From assembly GCA_019689635.1 (NCBI GenBank), contig JADGHB010000022.1:1-40717 (forward strand): a DNA stretch of 40,717 bases, written 5' to 3'. The notes beneath the pieces are model-generated. The model was not told the origin of the DNA. It was given only the letters and a program-made list of their open reading frames with translations, and searched no databases. How positions within the stretch are numbered: position 1 is the stretch's first letter; each line of letters opens with the position of its first letter. Positions 8,307-12,987 of this stretch are shown here, one piece after another. The stretch is from Nevskia sp. (GTDB taxonomy: Bacteria > Pseudomonadota > Gammaproteobacteria > Nevskiales > Nevskiaceae). Made by a program: the position numbers and the translations under genes.

Positions 8307-8888
8307 ATGAGCCTGCGCATCCTGCTGATCGACTGCGACGCCGAGCGCGCGCGCCTCGTCGAAGAAGGCCTCGCCGGCCTGGACTGCGAGCTGTTGCACC
8401 GGCGCAGCGCGGCCGAGGCCTTCGCCGAGCTCGACGCGCTACGCCCGGACATCGTCATCATCGACACCGACGCACCGGATCGGGACCTGCTGGAACAAAT
8501 CGGTGCGCTGCGCGCGCAGGCGCGGCCCATCGTGATGTTCGTGGACCAGAGCGACGAGGACGCCAGCCTGCGCGCGATCGAAGCCGGTGTGTCCGCCTAC
8601 GTCGTCAACGGACTGTCGCCGGCGCGCGTGCGCCCGATCCTGGACGTGGCCGTGGCGCGCTTCCGTTACATCGAAGCCTTGCGCAGCGAACTGGCGCGCT
8701 CGCGCGCCGATTTGGCCGAGCGCAAGCTCATCGAACGCGCCAAGGGCCTGCTCATGGAGCGGCGCGGCCTGTCCGAGGAACAGGCATTCGCCGCGCTGCG
8801 CCGCCAGGCCATGAACGAAGGTCTGCGCCTGGTCGAGGTCGCGCGTCGCGTGTTGTCGGTGGCGGAATTGCTGGACCGGGTGCCGTGA
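8307..8888 (+). CDS. nasT: NasT: ANTAR-domain RNA-binding antiterminator for nitrate assimilation
   Basis: 193 residues: a response-regulator-like receiver domain (about 1-120) and an ANTAR RNA-binding domain (about 128-190, AERKLIERAKGLLMERRGLSEEQAF). In the NasST system, NasS holds NasT without nitrate; with nitrate NasT is freed and binds paired hairpins in the target leader to stop termination. Asp53 in VIIDTD aligns with the phosphoacceptor, but MFVDQSDED and SAYVVNGL, where the usual receiver Lys and Thr are missing, are typical of NasT, which is controlled by NasS binding rather than phosphorylation. Start: ATG 8307 puts LRILLIDCD at the N-terminus as in homologues but has no clear ribosome site; ATG 8223, 28 codons earlier, is the alternative. 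Its stop overlaps the nasS GTG (GTGA). Its likely target lies at 10303-10378. Confidence 0.9.
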   Translation: MSLRILLIDCDAERARLVEEGLAGLDCELLHRRSAAEAFAELDALRPDIVIIDTDAPDRDLLEQIGALRAQARPIVMFVDQSDEDASLRAIEAGVSAYVVNGLSPARVRPILDVAVARFRYIEALRSELARSRADLAERKLIERAKGLLMERRGLSEEQAFAALRRQAMNEGLRLVEVARRVLSVAELLDRVP

Positions 8889-10099
8889 TCAAACGCGCGC
8901 TGCGCAGCCTGATCTTCGGCGACGAGCGGCGTGCCACGCCGCGCGTCTCGTACTTTCCCGCCGAGCGCGTCAATTCCAAACTCGAATCCCCGCGCGTGGC
9001 GCTGGGCTTCGTGCCGCTGACCGACGCCGCGCCCCTGATCGTGGCCGCGGAGCGTGGCTATTTCGCCGCAGAAGGCCTGGCCGTCGAACTGTGGCGCGAG
9101 ACCTCCTGGGCTTCGATCCGCGACAAGCTCGCCGCCGGCGCGCTGGACGGCGCCCAAACGCTCGCGCCGCTGCCGCTGGCCATGCACCTGGGCCTGACGC
9201 CCGCGCGCACGCCGATGTGCGTGCCGCTGCTGCTGGACCGCAACGGCAACGCGTTCACCGTCTCGCGCAGCCTGTACCGGCGCATGCAGATCCTGGCGCC
9301 GGAGGAGGCCGGCGTACGCAGCCGTAGCGGTCACGCGCTGCGCGCCGCCGCGCGCGAAGCGCTCGCCGCGGGACGCCCCTTGCGCTTCGCCACCGTGTTC
9401 CCGCACTCGACGCACACCTATCTGCTGCGCCATTGGCTGGATCGTTACCAGGTGCCGGCGCAAGCGATCGAACTCAGCGTGGTGCCGCCGCCGCTGATGG
9501 TCGAACAGCTCGCCGCCGGCCGCATCGACGGTTTCATCGTCGGCGCCCCGTGGCACACGCTCGCCGTCCAGAGCGGCCTCGGCCGCATCGTCGCGGCGAG
9601 CACCGACATCCTGCCCGGGCATCCGGAGAAAGCCTTCGCCGTCCGGCGCAGTTTCGCCGTCTCCTATCCGCGCACGCTACTGGCGCTGACGCGCGCGCTG
9701 CTGCGCGCCTGCCTCTGGCTCGACGACCCCGAGCATCGCGCCGCTGCCGCCGGCCTGATCTCGGCGCGCCGCTACGTCCATGCGCCGATCGAATGCCTGC
9801 GCATCGGCCTGGAAGACCGGCTGCTGGCCGCCACCGGCGAAACGCCGCAGGTCTGCGCCGGCTTTCACGTCTTCCATCGCGGCGGCGCCAACTGCCCCGA
9901 TCCGCGCGAGGTGTCCTGGTACTTGCGCGAGATGATGCGCTGGGGCGAGATCGATGCGGCGCTGGATGCCGAACGCCTGGCCGCGGACGTCTTCCGTCCT
10001 TCACTCTATTTCACGGCCCTGCGCACGCTGAACTCGCCGCAGTCGCGCTTCGCAGATGTCCGCAGCTCCGAGGCCTTGCTGCCTCGGCCGGCGGCTTGA
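8885..10099 (+). CDS. nasS: NasS: cytoplasmic nitrate sensor, NrtA/CmpA-like
   Basis: 404 residues resembling nitrate-binding proteins of ABC transporters (NrtA/CmpA), but without a signal peptide, as expected of the cytoplasmic sensor NasS. Typical segments: VALGFVPLTDAAPLIVAAERGYFAAEGL (about 39-66), SWASIRDKLAAGALDGAQTLAPLPLAMHLG (about 74-103), a long central lobe with RIDGFIVGAPWH, and the C-terminal FHVFHRGGANCPDPREVSWYLREMMRWG. NasS binds nitrate or nitrite and then releases NasT. The GTG start at 8885 is inside the nasT stop, so the two partners are translationally coupled. There are no permease or ATPase genes for an Nrt transporter nearby, which supports sensor rather than transporter function. 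The order nasT-nasS is as I recall for Paracoccus. Confidence 0.88.
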   Translation: MIKRALRSLIFGDERRATPRVSYFPAERVNSKLESPRVALGFVPLTDAAPLIVAAERGYFAAEGLAVELWRETSWASIRDKLAAGALDGAQTLAPLPLAMHLGLTPARTPMCVPLLLDRNGNAFTVSRSLYRRMQILAPEEAGVRSRSGHALRAAAREALAAGRPLRFATVFPHSTHTYLLRHWLDRYQVPAQAIELSVVPPPLMVEQLAAGRIDGFIVGAPWHTLAVQSGLGRIVAASTDILPGHPEKAFAVRRSFAVSYPRTLLALTRALLRACLWLDDPEHRAAAAGLISARRYVHAPIECLRIGLEDRLLAATGETPQVCAGFHVFHRGGANCPDPREVSWYLREMMRWGEIDAALDAERLAADVFRPSLYFTALRTLNSPQSRFADVRSSEALLPRPAA

Positions 10100-10115
10100 G
10101 GATCTCTATCAGGAC

Positions 10116-10130
10116 GTACCAGTTCGGTGG
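10116..10130 (+). promoter_or_regulatory. Possible NtrC site 2 (distal), nirB promoter
   Basis: GTACC-N5-GGTGG, two mismatches to GCACY-N5-RGTGC. Its centre is at about -140 from the predicted sigma-54 start and 33 bp (three helical turns) from the proximal site, the same geometry as the paired strong NtrC sites of enteric glnAp2 (about -140 and -108). Weak alone; the spacing is the main argument. Confidence 0.4.
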
Positions 10131-10148
10131 TCAGTCTCGGTGCGCGTC

Positions 10149-10163
10149 GCGCCACAACGGTGC
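10149..10163 (+). promoter_or_regulatory. Probable NtrC site 1 (proximal), nirB promoter
   Basis: GCGCC-ACAAC-GGTGC, one mismatch to GCACY-N5-RGTGC; the dyad extends to TCGCGCC/GGTGCGA. Its centre is about -107 from the predicted start of the sigma-54 promoter at 10237, the usual distance for an NtrC enhancer. Confidence 0.55.
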
Positions 10164-10236
10164 GACGGGATCTCGTCCAAGGCCGCCGCGCGCTTCACAA
10201 GCCTGCGAGAACTGCGGAGAAACCGTTTCGCACGGC

Positions 10237-10252
10237 TGGCACGGCGATTGCT
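10237..10252 (+). promoter_or_regulatory. Sigma-54 (RpoN) promoter of the nirB operon
   Basis: TGGCACG-GCGA-TTGCT is a perfect match to the RpoN consensus TGGCACG-N4-TTGCW, with GG (10238-10239) and GC (10250-10251) 10 bases apart. Predicted start at about 10263 gives a leader of about 184 nt before the nirB GTG, containing the ANTAR hairpins and the terminator. It lies in the nasS-nirB gap on the coding strand. Confidence 0.85.
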
Positions 10253-10302
10253 CTTTGAAATAGGAGCACGGCGTCCCGAAGCCAGGGAGCACGTGCCAGA
10301 AA

Positions 10303-10318
10303 GCCGCAAAGGCGCGGT
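10303..10318 (+). promoter_or_regulatory. ANTAR hairpin P1
   Basis: Stem CCGC (10304-10307) with GCGG (10314-10317), plus a G-U pair at 10303/10318, closing the hexaloop AAAGGC. Loop base 1 is A and base 4 is G, the two conserved loop bases of ANTAR RNA targets. Confidence 0.82.
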
Positions 10319-10326
10319 AAGAAACT

Positions 10327-10344
10327 GCGGACAACGGCGTCCGT
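10327..10344 (+). promoter_or_regulatory. ANTAR hairpin P2 (antiterminator)
   Basis: Stem CGGAC... (10328-10332) with GTCCG (10339-10343), plus a G-U pair at 10327/10344, closing the hexaloop AACGGC, again A1 and G4. Its 3' half overlaps the 5' arm of the terminator. Confidence 0.85.
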
Positions 10345-10378
10345 TCACGGGTTCATCGCCCGGAGCGGCGCCTTTTTT
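10336..10378 (+). terminator. Intrinsic terminator in the nirB leader (regulated)
   Basis: GGCGTC (10336-10341) pairs with GGCGCC (10367-10372) through five Watson-Crick pairs and one G-U pair; an inner stem CGGG/CCCG (10348-10351 and 10359-10362) extends it. Six T residues (10373-10378) follow at once. It ends about 70 bp before the nirB start, inside its leader, so it would stop transcription before the operon unless P2 forms. Confidence 0.85.
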
Positions 10379-10446
10379 ATGCGCGAGTGTTTTATGCAAA
10401 CCGAGAAAAAATCGATGACGGGGCAAACGATGATTGGAGCGGGACC

Positions 10447-12987
10447 GTGAGCGCGCGACGCCTGGTGCTCGTCGGTCACGGCATGGTCGGCCAGCGCTTC
10501 CTGGAAAACATCGCGCAGGCCAAAGACCGGTTCGCAGTCACGGTGCTGTGCGAGGAGCCCCGCCCGGCCTACGACCGCGTCAACCTCACTTCGTATTTCA
10601 GCGGCAAGGACGCGCAGGCGCTGTCATTGGTCCCGGAAGGCTTCTTCGCGCGCACCGGCTTCGAGCTGCGCCTCGGCGAAGGCGCGGCCGCGATCGACCG
10701 CAGCGCGCGCACGGTGACGACCACGCGCGGCGCAGTGCTGCCCTACGACGTGCTGGTCCTGGCCACCGGCTCCTCGCCCTTCGTGCCCCCGGTGCCGGGA
10801 CGCGAACGCGAACATTGCTACGTTTATCGCACGATCGAGGATCTGGACGCGATCAAGGCCGCGGCCAACGTCTCCAAGATCGGCACGGTGGTCGGCGGCG
10901 GCCTGCTCGGTCTGGAAGCGGCCAAGGCGCTCAAGGATCTGGGCCTCGAAACCCACGTCGTGGAATTCGCGCCGCGCCTGATGGCGGTGCAACTCGACGA
11001 GTTCGGCGGCCGCCTGCTGCGCAAGAAGATCGAGGCACTGGGGGTGCGCGTCCATCTGTCCAGGAACACCACGCGCATCGCGGCGGGCGAAAGCGCGCGC
11101 CACCGCATGCTGTTTGCCGACGGCGAGCATCTGGAAACCGACGTCATCGTGTTCTCCGCCGGCATCCGGCCGCGCGACGAACTGGCGCGCGCGGCGGGCC
11201 TCGCCCTCGGCCCGCGCGGCGGCATCGCCATCGACGGCGCCTGCCGCACCAGCGATCCGGCGATCTACGCCATCGGCGAATGCGCGGCCTGGCACGGAAC
11301 CATCTTCGGCCTAGTGGCGCCGGGCTACGACATGGCGCGCGTCGCGGCCCAGCAATTGCTGGAAGCGCCGGCCGAATTCGCCGGCGCCGACCTGAGCACC
11401 AAGCTCAAGCTCCTGGGCGTGGAAGTGGCTTCCATCGGCGATGCCCACGGCAATACGCCCGGCGCGCTGTCCTATTTCTTCAGCGACGAGCGTGCCGGCC
11501 ATTACAAGAAGCTGGTGACGAGTGCCGACGGCAAGCGCCTTTTGGGCGCGGTGCTGGTCGGCGATGCCGGCGATTACGGCACGCTGCTGGCCATGGTGCA
11601 GAACGGTCTGCCGCTGCCCGCGCAGCCCGAAACGCTGATTCTGCCGGCGCACGAAGGCAGCAAGACGCAAGGTCTGGGCAGTGAGCTGCTGCCGGCCGGC
11701 GCCACGATCTGCTCCTGCAACAACGTATGCAAGGGCGCGCTGTGCGCGGCGATCGAGGCTGGCGCCACGACGCTGGGCGCGCTCAAGAAATCGACCAAGG
11801 CCTCCACCTCCTGCGGCGGCTGCGCCACGCTGGTCAAGCAGATCCTCGACGCCGAGCTGCGCCGCCGCGGCGTGGTGGTCACCAACCACCTGTGCGAGCA
11901 CTTCCCCCACACGCGCCAGGAGCTGTTCCATCTGGTGCGCCTCGGCGGTCTGAAAACCTTCGACGAAGTGCTGGTCAAGCATGGCCGCGGCCTGGGCTGC
12001 GACATCTGCAAGCCGGCGGTGGCTTCCATCCTCGCCGCCTGCTGGAACGAGTTCGTGCTCGCACCCAAGCACGCCTCGATCCAGGACACCAACGACTACT
12101 ACCTCGCCAACCTGCAGAAGGACGGCACCTACTCGGTAGTCCCGCGCGTGCCCGGCGGCGAGATCACGCCAGAGAAACTCATCGTGCTGGGCAAGGTGGC
12201 GCAGCGCTTCGGTCTTTACACCAAGATCACCGGCGGCCAGCGCATCGACCTGTTCGGCGCGCGCCTCGAGCAGCTTCCGTTGATCTGGAAGGACCTCATC
12301 GCCGCCGGCTTCGAGTCCGGCCACGCCTACGGCAAGGCGGTGCGCACGGTCAAGTCCTGCGTCGGTTCCACCTGGTGCCGCTACGGCGTGCAGGACTCGG
12401 TGGGCCTGGCGATCAAGCTCGAGCAGCGCTACCGCGGCATCCGCAGCCCGCACAAGCTCAAGCTCGGCGTGTCCGGCTGCACGCGCGAGTGCGCCGAGGC
12501 CCAGGGCAAGGACGTGGGCGTCATCGCCACCGAAAAAGGCTGGAACCTCTACGTGTGCGGCAACGGCGGCATGCGCCCGCGCCATGCCGACCTGCTGGCC
12601 GCGGATCTCGATGAAGCCACCCTGGTGCGCTACATCGACCGTTTCCTGATGTTCTACATCCGCACCGCCGACCGTCTGCAGCGCACCAGCGTGTGGCTGG
12701 AGAACCTGGAAGGCGGCATCGACTACGTGCGCCAGGTGGTCTGCGAGGACCGCCTGGGCATCGCCGCCGAACTGGAGGCCGAGATGCAAAAACTGGTGGA
12801 CAGCTACGAATGCGAGTGGAAGAAGGCGCTGAGCAACCCCGAGACGCTCAAACGCTTCCGTCACTTCGTCAACACGCCGGCGGCGGATCCCAGCATCCGG
12901 TTCGTCACCGAGCGCGGCCAGATCCGGCCGGCGCAGCGGCAGGAAAAAGACGCGCCGGCCGCTGCCGCCGCGGAGCTCGTGTCATGA
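10447..12987 (+). CDS. nirB: Assimilatory nitrite reductase [NAD(P)H], large subunit NirB
   Basis: 846 residues from GTG 10447 (E. coli NirB 847). NirB reduces nitrite to ammonium with NAD(P)H. N-terminal FAD/NAD domains begin RRLVLVGHGMVGQRF, with GTVVGGGLLGLEAAKAL for the second dinucleotide site. A BFD-like [2Fe-2S] region starts with C422-S-C424 and C428, and a second Cys-pair segment follows. The sulfite/nitrite reductase half has the siroheme-[4Fe-4S] ligands C638, C644, C678 and C682 (SCVGSTWCRYG and GVSGCTREC). An open frame extends upstream to 10387, but that start would lie 9 nt after the terminator T-run with no room for a ribosome site; GTG 10447 has TGGAG upstream and fits the family. 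Its stop overlaps the nirD ATG. First gene under the leader at 10263-10446. Confidence 0.97.
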   Translation: MSARRLVLVGHGMVGQRFLENIAQAKDRFAVTVLCEEPRPAYDRVNLTSYFSGKDAQALSLVPEGFFARTGFELRLGEGAAAIDRSARTVTTTRGAVLPYDVLVLATGSSPFVPPVPGREREHCYVYRTIEDLDAIKAAANVSKIGTVVGGGLLGLEAAKALKDLGLETHVVEFAPRLMAVQLDEFGGRLLRKKIEALGVRVHLSRNTTRIAAGESARHRMLFADGEHLETDVIVFSAGIRPRDELARAAGLALGPRGGIAIDGACRTSDPAIYAIGECAAWHGTIFGLVAPGYDMARVAAQQLLEAPAEFAGADLSTKLKLLGVEVASIGDAHGNTPGALSYFFSDERAGHYKKLVTSADGKRLLGAVLVGDAGDYGTLLAMVQNGLPLPAQPETLILPAHEGSKTQGLGSELLPAGATICSCNNVCKGALCAAIEAGATTLGALKKSTKASTSCGGCATLVKQILDAELRRRGVVVTNHLCEHFPHTRQELFHLVRLGGLKTFDEVLVKHGRGLGCDICKPAVASILAACWNEFVLAPKHASIQDTNDYYLANLQKDGTYSVVPRVPGGEITPEKLIVLGKVAQRFGLYTKITGGQRIDLFGARLEQLPLIWKDLIAAGFESGHAYGKAVRTVKSCVGSTWCRYGVQDSVGLAIKLEQRYRGIRSPHKLKLGVSGCTRECAEAQGKDVGVIATEKGWNLYVCGNGGMRPRHADLLAADLDEATLVRYIDRFLMFYIRTADRLQRTSVWLENLEGGIDYVRQVVCEDRLGIAAELEAEMQKLVDSYECEWKKALSNPETLKRFRHFVNTPAADPSIRFVTERGQIRPAQRQEKDAPAAAAAELVS

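Follow-up and report, generated by a model that had tools for sequence, protein, structure and literature searches.

The leader of nirB in Nevskia sp. is very probably a sigma54-driven, NasT-controlled antitermination leader. In the window, by which we mean the whole 40,717-nucleotide stretch of DNA analyzed, the switch is positioned between nasS and nirB (Table 1). Our reading is based on the anatomy of the leader, the mutual exclusion of its hairpins in folding, its conservation among relatives, its association with a promoter, the presence of a single ANTAR gene in the genome, and the conservation of RNA-contact residues in the regulator. We regard the leader as a clear and well-conserved case of a known type of RNA switch and not as a new kind of system.

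Table 1. Features of the nasT-nasS-nirB region, in window coordinates
Feature	Position	Strand	Description
nasT	8307-8888	+	receiver-like domain and ANTAR RNA-binding domain; Pfam ANTAR 3e-19 in its ORF
nasS	8885-10099	+	nitrate/nitrite-binding partner, NMT1_2 / NrtA-like; Pfam NMT1_2 5.8e-74; 4-base overlap with nasT
possible NtrC site	10149-10163	+	GCGCC-N5-GGTGC; one mismatch to GCACC-N5-GGTGC; weak
putative sigma54 (-24/-12) promoter	10237-10252	+	TGGCACGGCGATTGCT; 11/11 positions of consensus; start expected near 10263
stable 5' hairpin of the predicted leader	10266-10296	+	-16.6 kcal/mol; heptaloop GAAGCCA, not an ANTAR hexaloop
P1	10303-10318	+	5-bp stem, hexaloop AAAGGC, C-G closing pair, GCCGC[AAAGGC]GCGGT, outermost pair G-U
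linker P1 to P2	10319-10326	+	8 nt
P2, antiterminator hairpin	10327-10344	+	6-bp stem, hexaloop AACGGC, core GGACAACGGCGTCC, GCGGAC[AACGGC]GTCCGT, outermost pair G-U
intrinsic terminator stem	10336-10372	+	-25.3 kcal/mol; 10336-10344 common to P2
T6 tract of terminator	10373-10378	+	read from sequence
nirB, nitrite reductase large subunit	10447-12987	+	GTG start; NCBIfam nitri_red_nirB 1130.2 bits, cut-off 578.35

An earlier note on this DNA had described P1 and P2 as a pair of ANTAR hairpins, and its coordinates, its loops, the presence of A1 and G4 in both loops, and the 8-nt spacing agree with the sequence base for base. The nine bases that it had assigned both to P2 and to the terminator, 10336-10344, do lie in both, and the T6 tract is present. 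A C-G pair closes both hexaloops. The leader thus has the two hexaloop hairpins, with A1 and G4 in each loop, by which ANTAR dual-hexaloop RNAs are recognized, and its linker falls within the limits of 5-12 nt for eut leaders and 2-25 nt for a survey of Actinobacteria. To call this switch geometry unusually clear, as had been done, is fair as wording, although it is the standard geometry. The stable 5' hairpin was considered as an alternative P1 and ruled out because its loop is a heptaloop without A1 and G4. By eye, the nine bases ACGGCGTCC occur twice in the leader, at 10268-10276 within the 5' hairpin and at 10334-10342 across the loop and 3' strand of P2, a duplication that may be a coincidence.

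Folding of the leader from its predicted start upholds the proposal that P2 and the terminator are mutually exclusive. When the transcript ends at 10344, P1 and P2 together are the minimum-energy structure, with mean pair probabilities of 0.77 and 0.82, respectively; once the RNA reaches 10372, the terminator is formed and the probability of P2 is 0.00, as it still is at 10378. Forcing P1 and P2 upon the leader to 10378 costs approximately 10 kcal/mol, and a bound protein would therefore be needed to maintain them. In these predicted folds, P1 is less steady than the earlier picture had implied. Its mean probability is 0.98 for a transcript ending at 10326, 0.00 at 10338, and, after the value at 10344 given above, 0.11 at 10360 and 0.04 at 10378, where an alternative pairing of 10314-10318 with 10324-10328 beats it by 1.9 kcal/mol. 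With more flanking sequence, the minimum-energy fold of 10260-10390 retains P1.

The 5' hairpin and the alternative pairing raise the question of whether the ANTAR leader carries a further layer of control, for example an anti-antiterminator. The hairpin is indeed stable (-16.6 kcal/mol), and the alternative to P1 is the favored form in the full leader, but the energy gap between the two pairings is small, and we consider an additional layer of this kind unlikely. As for the antitermination switch itself, a search under the same rule recovered it in full from none of 20,000 dinucleotide shuffles of the nasS-nirB region (10100-10447), and a scan of the same kind found no second switch site on either strand of the window.

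Upstream of the leader lies a putative sigma54 promoter, TGGCACGGCGATTGCT, which did not appear in the earlier finding. Scored against the sigma54 consensus, which has 11 positions, it is a complete match, and it would place the transcript start near 10263. The pairing of promoter and switch recurs among relatives: a sigma54 match of at least 9/11 lies within 220 nt upstream of all 48 elements in a curated set, versus 95 of 1920 random positions and 1 of 48 reversed regions examined as a control, although the 48 are not independent of one another because several genomes resemble near-duplicates. This curated set comprises the 57 rows of a P2-terminator scan, minus 10 that were dropped by eye, plus a second site of the same genome, C17, and it includes the window site. 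The dropped rows were judged to be spurious or to represent the same element in another register, and they were removed before promoters were examined; 46 of the 48 promoter counts are fresh, those at the window site and at C17 having been noticed before counting. The genome contains rpoN and a clear ntrC (724.6 bits, cut-off 558.6). The NtrC consensus is GCACC-N5-GGTGC, and sequences within one mismatch of it occur six times across the window, including the weak candidate listed in Table 1. In the available portion of a survey of sigma54 regulation, 66 sigma54 promoters are predicted for genes of the ANTAR-protein group, NasT included (PMC12316311).

The promoter also bears on a plainer explanation, namely that the hairpin at 10336-10378 is merely the end-of-operon terminator of nasTS and that P1 and P2 are incidental. 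Such a terminator, 237 nt after the nasS stop codon, would end nasTS transcripts, but a perfect sigma54 promoter directed at nirB stands between nasS and the terminator. Furthermore, when only 10263-10335 was shuffled and the real terminator was kept, 1 of 20,000 shuffles gave the switch, and the same order of parts precedes both the C17 operon, whose upstream ORF is something other than nasS, and Paraburkholderia nirB. With these observations, we judge the explanation highly improbable. It is scarcely credible that NasT acts on translation here instead of through the terminator: some ANTAR RNAs are predicted to work in this manner in the part of the source at hand (PMC3369931), but P2 shares bases with a strong T6 terminator, and 102 nt separate the end of P2 from the nirB start codon.

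The genes around the leader fit with NasT-controlled antitermination. As had been stated, nasT lies upstream of the leader with nasS between them. The GTG start of nirB at 10447 is in the frame of ORF 10387, and nirB is followed by genes for a Rieske-type NirD, an FAD oxidoreductase, a molybdopterin oxidoreductase, and an MFS transporter. Across the 2.81-Mb genome, which is 98.5% complete, nasT is the single match to the ANTAR domain. PDB matches of NasT include the antiterminator 1s8n, the ANTAR response regulator 6wsh/6ww6, and NasR 4akk, and we take 6wsh/6ww6 to be EutV because its residue numbering fits that of PMC8934654. The text available from that paper names 11 EutV residues as RNA contacts, of which 8 are identical in NasT, where the numbering is that of EutV minus 3. 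The other three are K147, Y164, and R175, replaced by R, F, and G, respectively; the first two changes are conservative, and R175 is lost. By analogy with its family, NasS would bind both its ligand and NasT. Among 17 genomes of the same genus (G001-G017), two lack a match to NasS and no match in the others exceeds 47% identity; because of this low identity, the nas cluster of Nevskia sp. may be divergent or acquired.

To test the leader site against models of related elements, we used two from which the site itself was left out: R1, made from 15 relatives with no member from the same genome, and R2, made from 23 sequences that include the C17 site and seven from beta-proteobacteria. Within the window, both models place the leader site first (R1, 17.7 bits, E 0.0029; R2, E 0.0025). 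Genome-wide, it ranks fourth with R1 (E 0.20, 150 of 1774 candidates scored) and second with R2 (E 0.17, 150 of 1997 candidates scored). The two-hairpin covariance model is weak by itself for the window site, and the case therefore rests on the model combined with terminator, promoter, and genetic context. Five other R1 matches in the genome (C40, C11, C16, C29, and C79) lack a T5 tract in the 70 nt downstream, and nowhere in the 120 nt upstream of them does a sigma54 score exceed 7/11. An Rfam search of the window gave no family at its cut-off; for the leader, with E values up to 10 admitted, it gave only chrB-b (E 1.7) and narK (E 4.2, 10238-10277), both far below their cut-offs.

The best R1 site of the genome is C17:621-657, with an E value of 9.0e-7 among the 150 of 1774 candidates scored. 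This site has its own sigma54 promoter (10/11) and its own terminator, and it precedes genes for a DUF3034 protein, a bacterial globin, and a PepSY-type (PepSY_TM) membrane protein. The locus (L080, G000:C17, 560-700, with downstream sequence to 4058) thus gives the genome a second ANTAR RNA, stronger than the one before nirB. With a single ANTAR gene found, the nirB leader and the C17 leader are probably both regulated by NasT. The presence of the globin leads us to guess that the C17 operon helps the cell to withstand nitrite or nitric oxide.

Conservation was assessed in 61 genomes, representing Nevskia sp. itself, its genus, its family, and its order, of which 45 have an ANTAR gene. In 41 loci, consisting of 40 regions from relatives and the window, a scan for two hairpins plus a terminator returned 19 rows versus 1 in reversed sequence, and a scan for P2 with an overlapping terminator returned 57 versus 4. 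The pattern GGACANNGNNGTCC-N15-45-T5, which was designed after both sites of the Nevskia sp. genome had been seen, occurs at two places in that 2.8-Mb genome, before nirB and before the DUF3034-globin operon. It is present in 30 of the 61 genomes, compared with 10 matches of a backward control pattern across all 61, and 29 of the 45 genomes that have an ANTAR gene contain it versus 1 of the 16 that do not (G003, 84% complete).

A search of genomic contigs with NasS confirmed no relative. A search with NirB extended the comparison to 80 named loci, the closest being from a Nevskiaceae and a Panacagrimonas MAG at 74-75%, followed by beta-proteobacteria. Three of these have less than 250 nt of upstream DNA; among the other 77, a P2 hairpin with terminator lies within 700 nt of nirB in 24 (one of which, L152, seems spurious and was retained in all counts) versus 2 in reversed sequence, and 53 have no such leader within that distance. 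When entire loci were scanned for promoter, P2, and terminator together, 61 sites were found in 53 of the 80 nirB loci versus 1 reversed, and thus many loci hold the element further upstream of nirB; the remaining 27 have none anywhere in the locus. With the window and C17 counted in, the same scan of all 122 loci gave 111 sites in 86 loci versus 1 reversed. Because the loci were chosen for nasT-nasS or nirB, these rates are not valid for genomes at large, and because of the near-duplicate genomes the 111 elements are not independent. The first recognized gene within 450 nt downstream is nirB for 26 of them, nasS-like for 16, DUF3034 for 11 (C17 included), a porin for 8, narK for 5, and nasT for 2, with 43 unassigned.

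Among these 111 elements, the 14-base P2 core of the window, GGACAACGGCGTCC, is exact in 50, the window included. A P1 hairpin of at least 5 bp with A1 and G4 is present in 91, where it was taken to be the candidate with the most pairs, a rule that can select a chance hairpin; a C-G pair closes P1 in 87 of the 91 and A occupies loop position 2 in 86, and neither feature was selected for. In related leaders, the P2-terminator design is kept together with its sigma54 promoter, and P1 accompanies it in most elements, but 20 of the 111 have promoter, P2, and terminator without a P1 of at least 5 bp bearing A1 and G4. Elements lacking a recognizable P1 include L043, L046, L047, L050, L051, L058, L063, and L064. 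P2 has no two-sided change in alignment A2, and so there is no covariation in it there. Pairing counts from alignment A1 lean toward structure because its 15 short-linker sites were selected for pairing and for A1 and G4.

The spacing of the two hairpins differs among relatives. Measured from loop to loop in the 91 elements with P1, the distance is 10-19 nt in 24 (19 nt in the window) and at least 25 nt in 67, with a peak of 31 elements at 50-54 nt. Two sets of long-gap sites were chosen by similarity, with helices predicted from the same alignments. In the first, A6, nine leaders (eight from Cupriavidus and one from Ralstonia; L106, L118, L126, L127, L130, L137, L146, L147, and L148) have a predicted 11-bp helix in the gap, with two-sided change in 7 pairs. 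For the whole Cupriavidus/Ralstonia structure, none of 500 shuffles attained the covariation score, and 30 of the 500 attained the number of two-sided pairs. In the second, A7, 13 leaders (12 from Paraburkholderia and one named Burkholderia sp.; for example L102, L107, and L113) have a predicted 8-bp gap helix, with two-sided change in only 2 pairs. The 55 gaps with a loop-to-loop distance of at least 45 nt have a mean folding energy of -12.8 kcal/mol versus -8.9 for shuffled sequence, and the stability of the gap is reached by at most 2 of 50 simple shuffles in just 25 of the 55.

On balance, we somewhat favor the view that there are two interchangeable geometries of ANTAR RNA, a direct one with a short linker, as in the window, and a bridged one, in which approximately 40 nt separate P1 from P2 and form a spacer helix (with clear covariation in Cupriavidus/Ralstonia), and that the regulator tolerates a distance excluded by published EutV work and searches. 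Many beta-proteobacterial relatives have the long spacing. As far as the accessible text of the sources extends, linkers in eut leaders are 5-12 nt long and induction was impaired at 14 nt (PMC3369931), EutV ceased to act after a 20-nt extension (PMC8934654), and the survey of Actinobacteria accepted linkers of 2-25 nt (PMC8164766). The bridged form stands before nirB in Paraburkholderia and approximately 1.4 kb upstream of nirB in Cupriavidus, Ralstonia, and Burkholderia, and both forms follow sigma54 promoters in the sampled loci. Among the titles and abstract openings listed by literature searches, none mentions a spacer helix for an ANTAR RNA, although this negative is weak. The spacing variant may be new.

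Our findings can be placed beside several characterized systems, compared here on the portions of the cited papers that were available. The closest is the NalA leader of Pseudomonas nirBD (PMC12830290), which we liken to the Nevskia sp. leader by description and not by sequence. Transcription of NalA starts at a sigma54 promoter and involves phosphorylated NtrC; nitrate or nitrite releases NasT from NasS, and the freed NasT opens the leader. Common to both leaders would be the gene controlled, a sigma54 promoter with NtrC, antitermination by NasT, and a leader hairpin that stops transcription. The sequence of Nevskia sp. contains both the nasS-nasT adjacency and the pre-leader sigma54 promoter of the NalA type, and it differs from NalA in that nasTS is directly upstream of the leader.

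The eut leaders of Enterococcus faecalis, which respond to EutV, share the two A1/G4 hexaloop hairpins, the overlap of P2 and terminator, and the short linker (PMC3369931, PMC8934654), whereas the partner protein in Nevskia sp. is NasS and not the EutW kinase, and Tyr164 and Arg175 of EutV are Phe and Gly in NasT. In Paracoccus denitrificans, nasTS is directly upstream of a hairpin-containing nasA leader of approximately 200 bp, and NasT binds the leader RNA (PMC3795266, PMC5424462); that leader differs in controlling nasABGHC, and the available text of the two papers names no sigma54 promoter for nasA. The nasF leader of Klebsiella oxytoca is likewise a nitrate-responsive ANTAR antitermination leader with two A1/G4 hexaloop hairpins (PMC3369931), but its NasR is a sensor and regulator in one protein, unlike the two separate proteins of Nevskia sp. 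In Bradyrhizobium, NasT hairpins were predicted before narK and bjgb without NasT-dependent activation of these genes, as described in the part of the report at hand (PMC6759348), and this result counts against an easy inference of NasT control.

Bringing these observations together, published work on NasS-NasT and on NalA suggests that NasT binds the nirB leader and that nitrate controls it, and we further infer the start site and activation by NtrC. When nitrogen is limiting, sigma54 RNA polymerase would initiate near 10263, presumably together with NtrC. Without nitrate, NasS would hold NasT, the terminator at 10336-10378 would form, and transcription would end before nirB; transcripts reading through from nasTS would end at this terminator as well. 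In the presence of nitrate or nitrite, NasS would release NasT, which would bind the loops of the nascent RNA in order, P1 before P2, and thereby keep 10336-10344 within P2. The terminator would be blocked by the P2 hairpin that NasT holds, and the nirB operon would be transcribed.

The nirB leader may thus serve as a compact two-signal gate, in which nitrogen shortage would be read at the promoter and nitrate at the RNA. In the sampled leaders, the sigma54 promoter and the ANTAR switch occur together. The finding in the window also suggests that the DUF3034-globin-PepSY operon answers to the same regulator as nirB. Finally, the spacing between P1 and P2 is perhaps wider in this family of leaders than published work describes, which makes the manner in which one dimer serves two hairpins a testable question.
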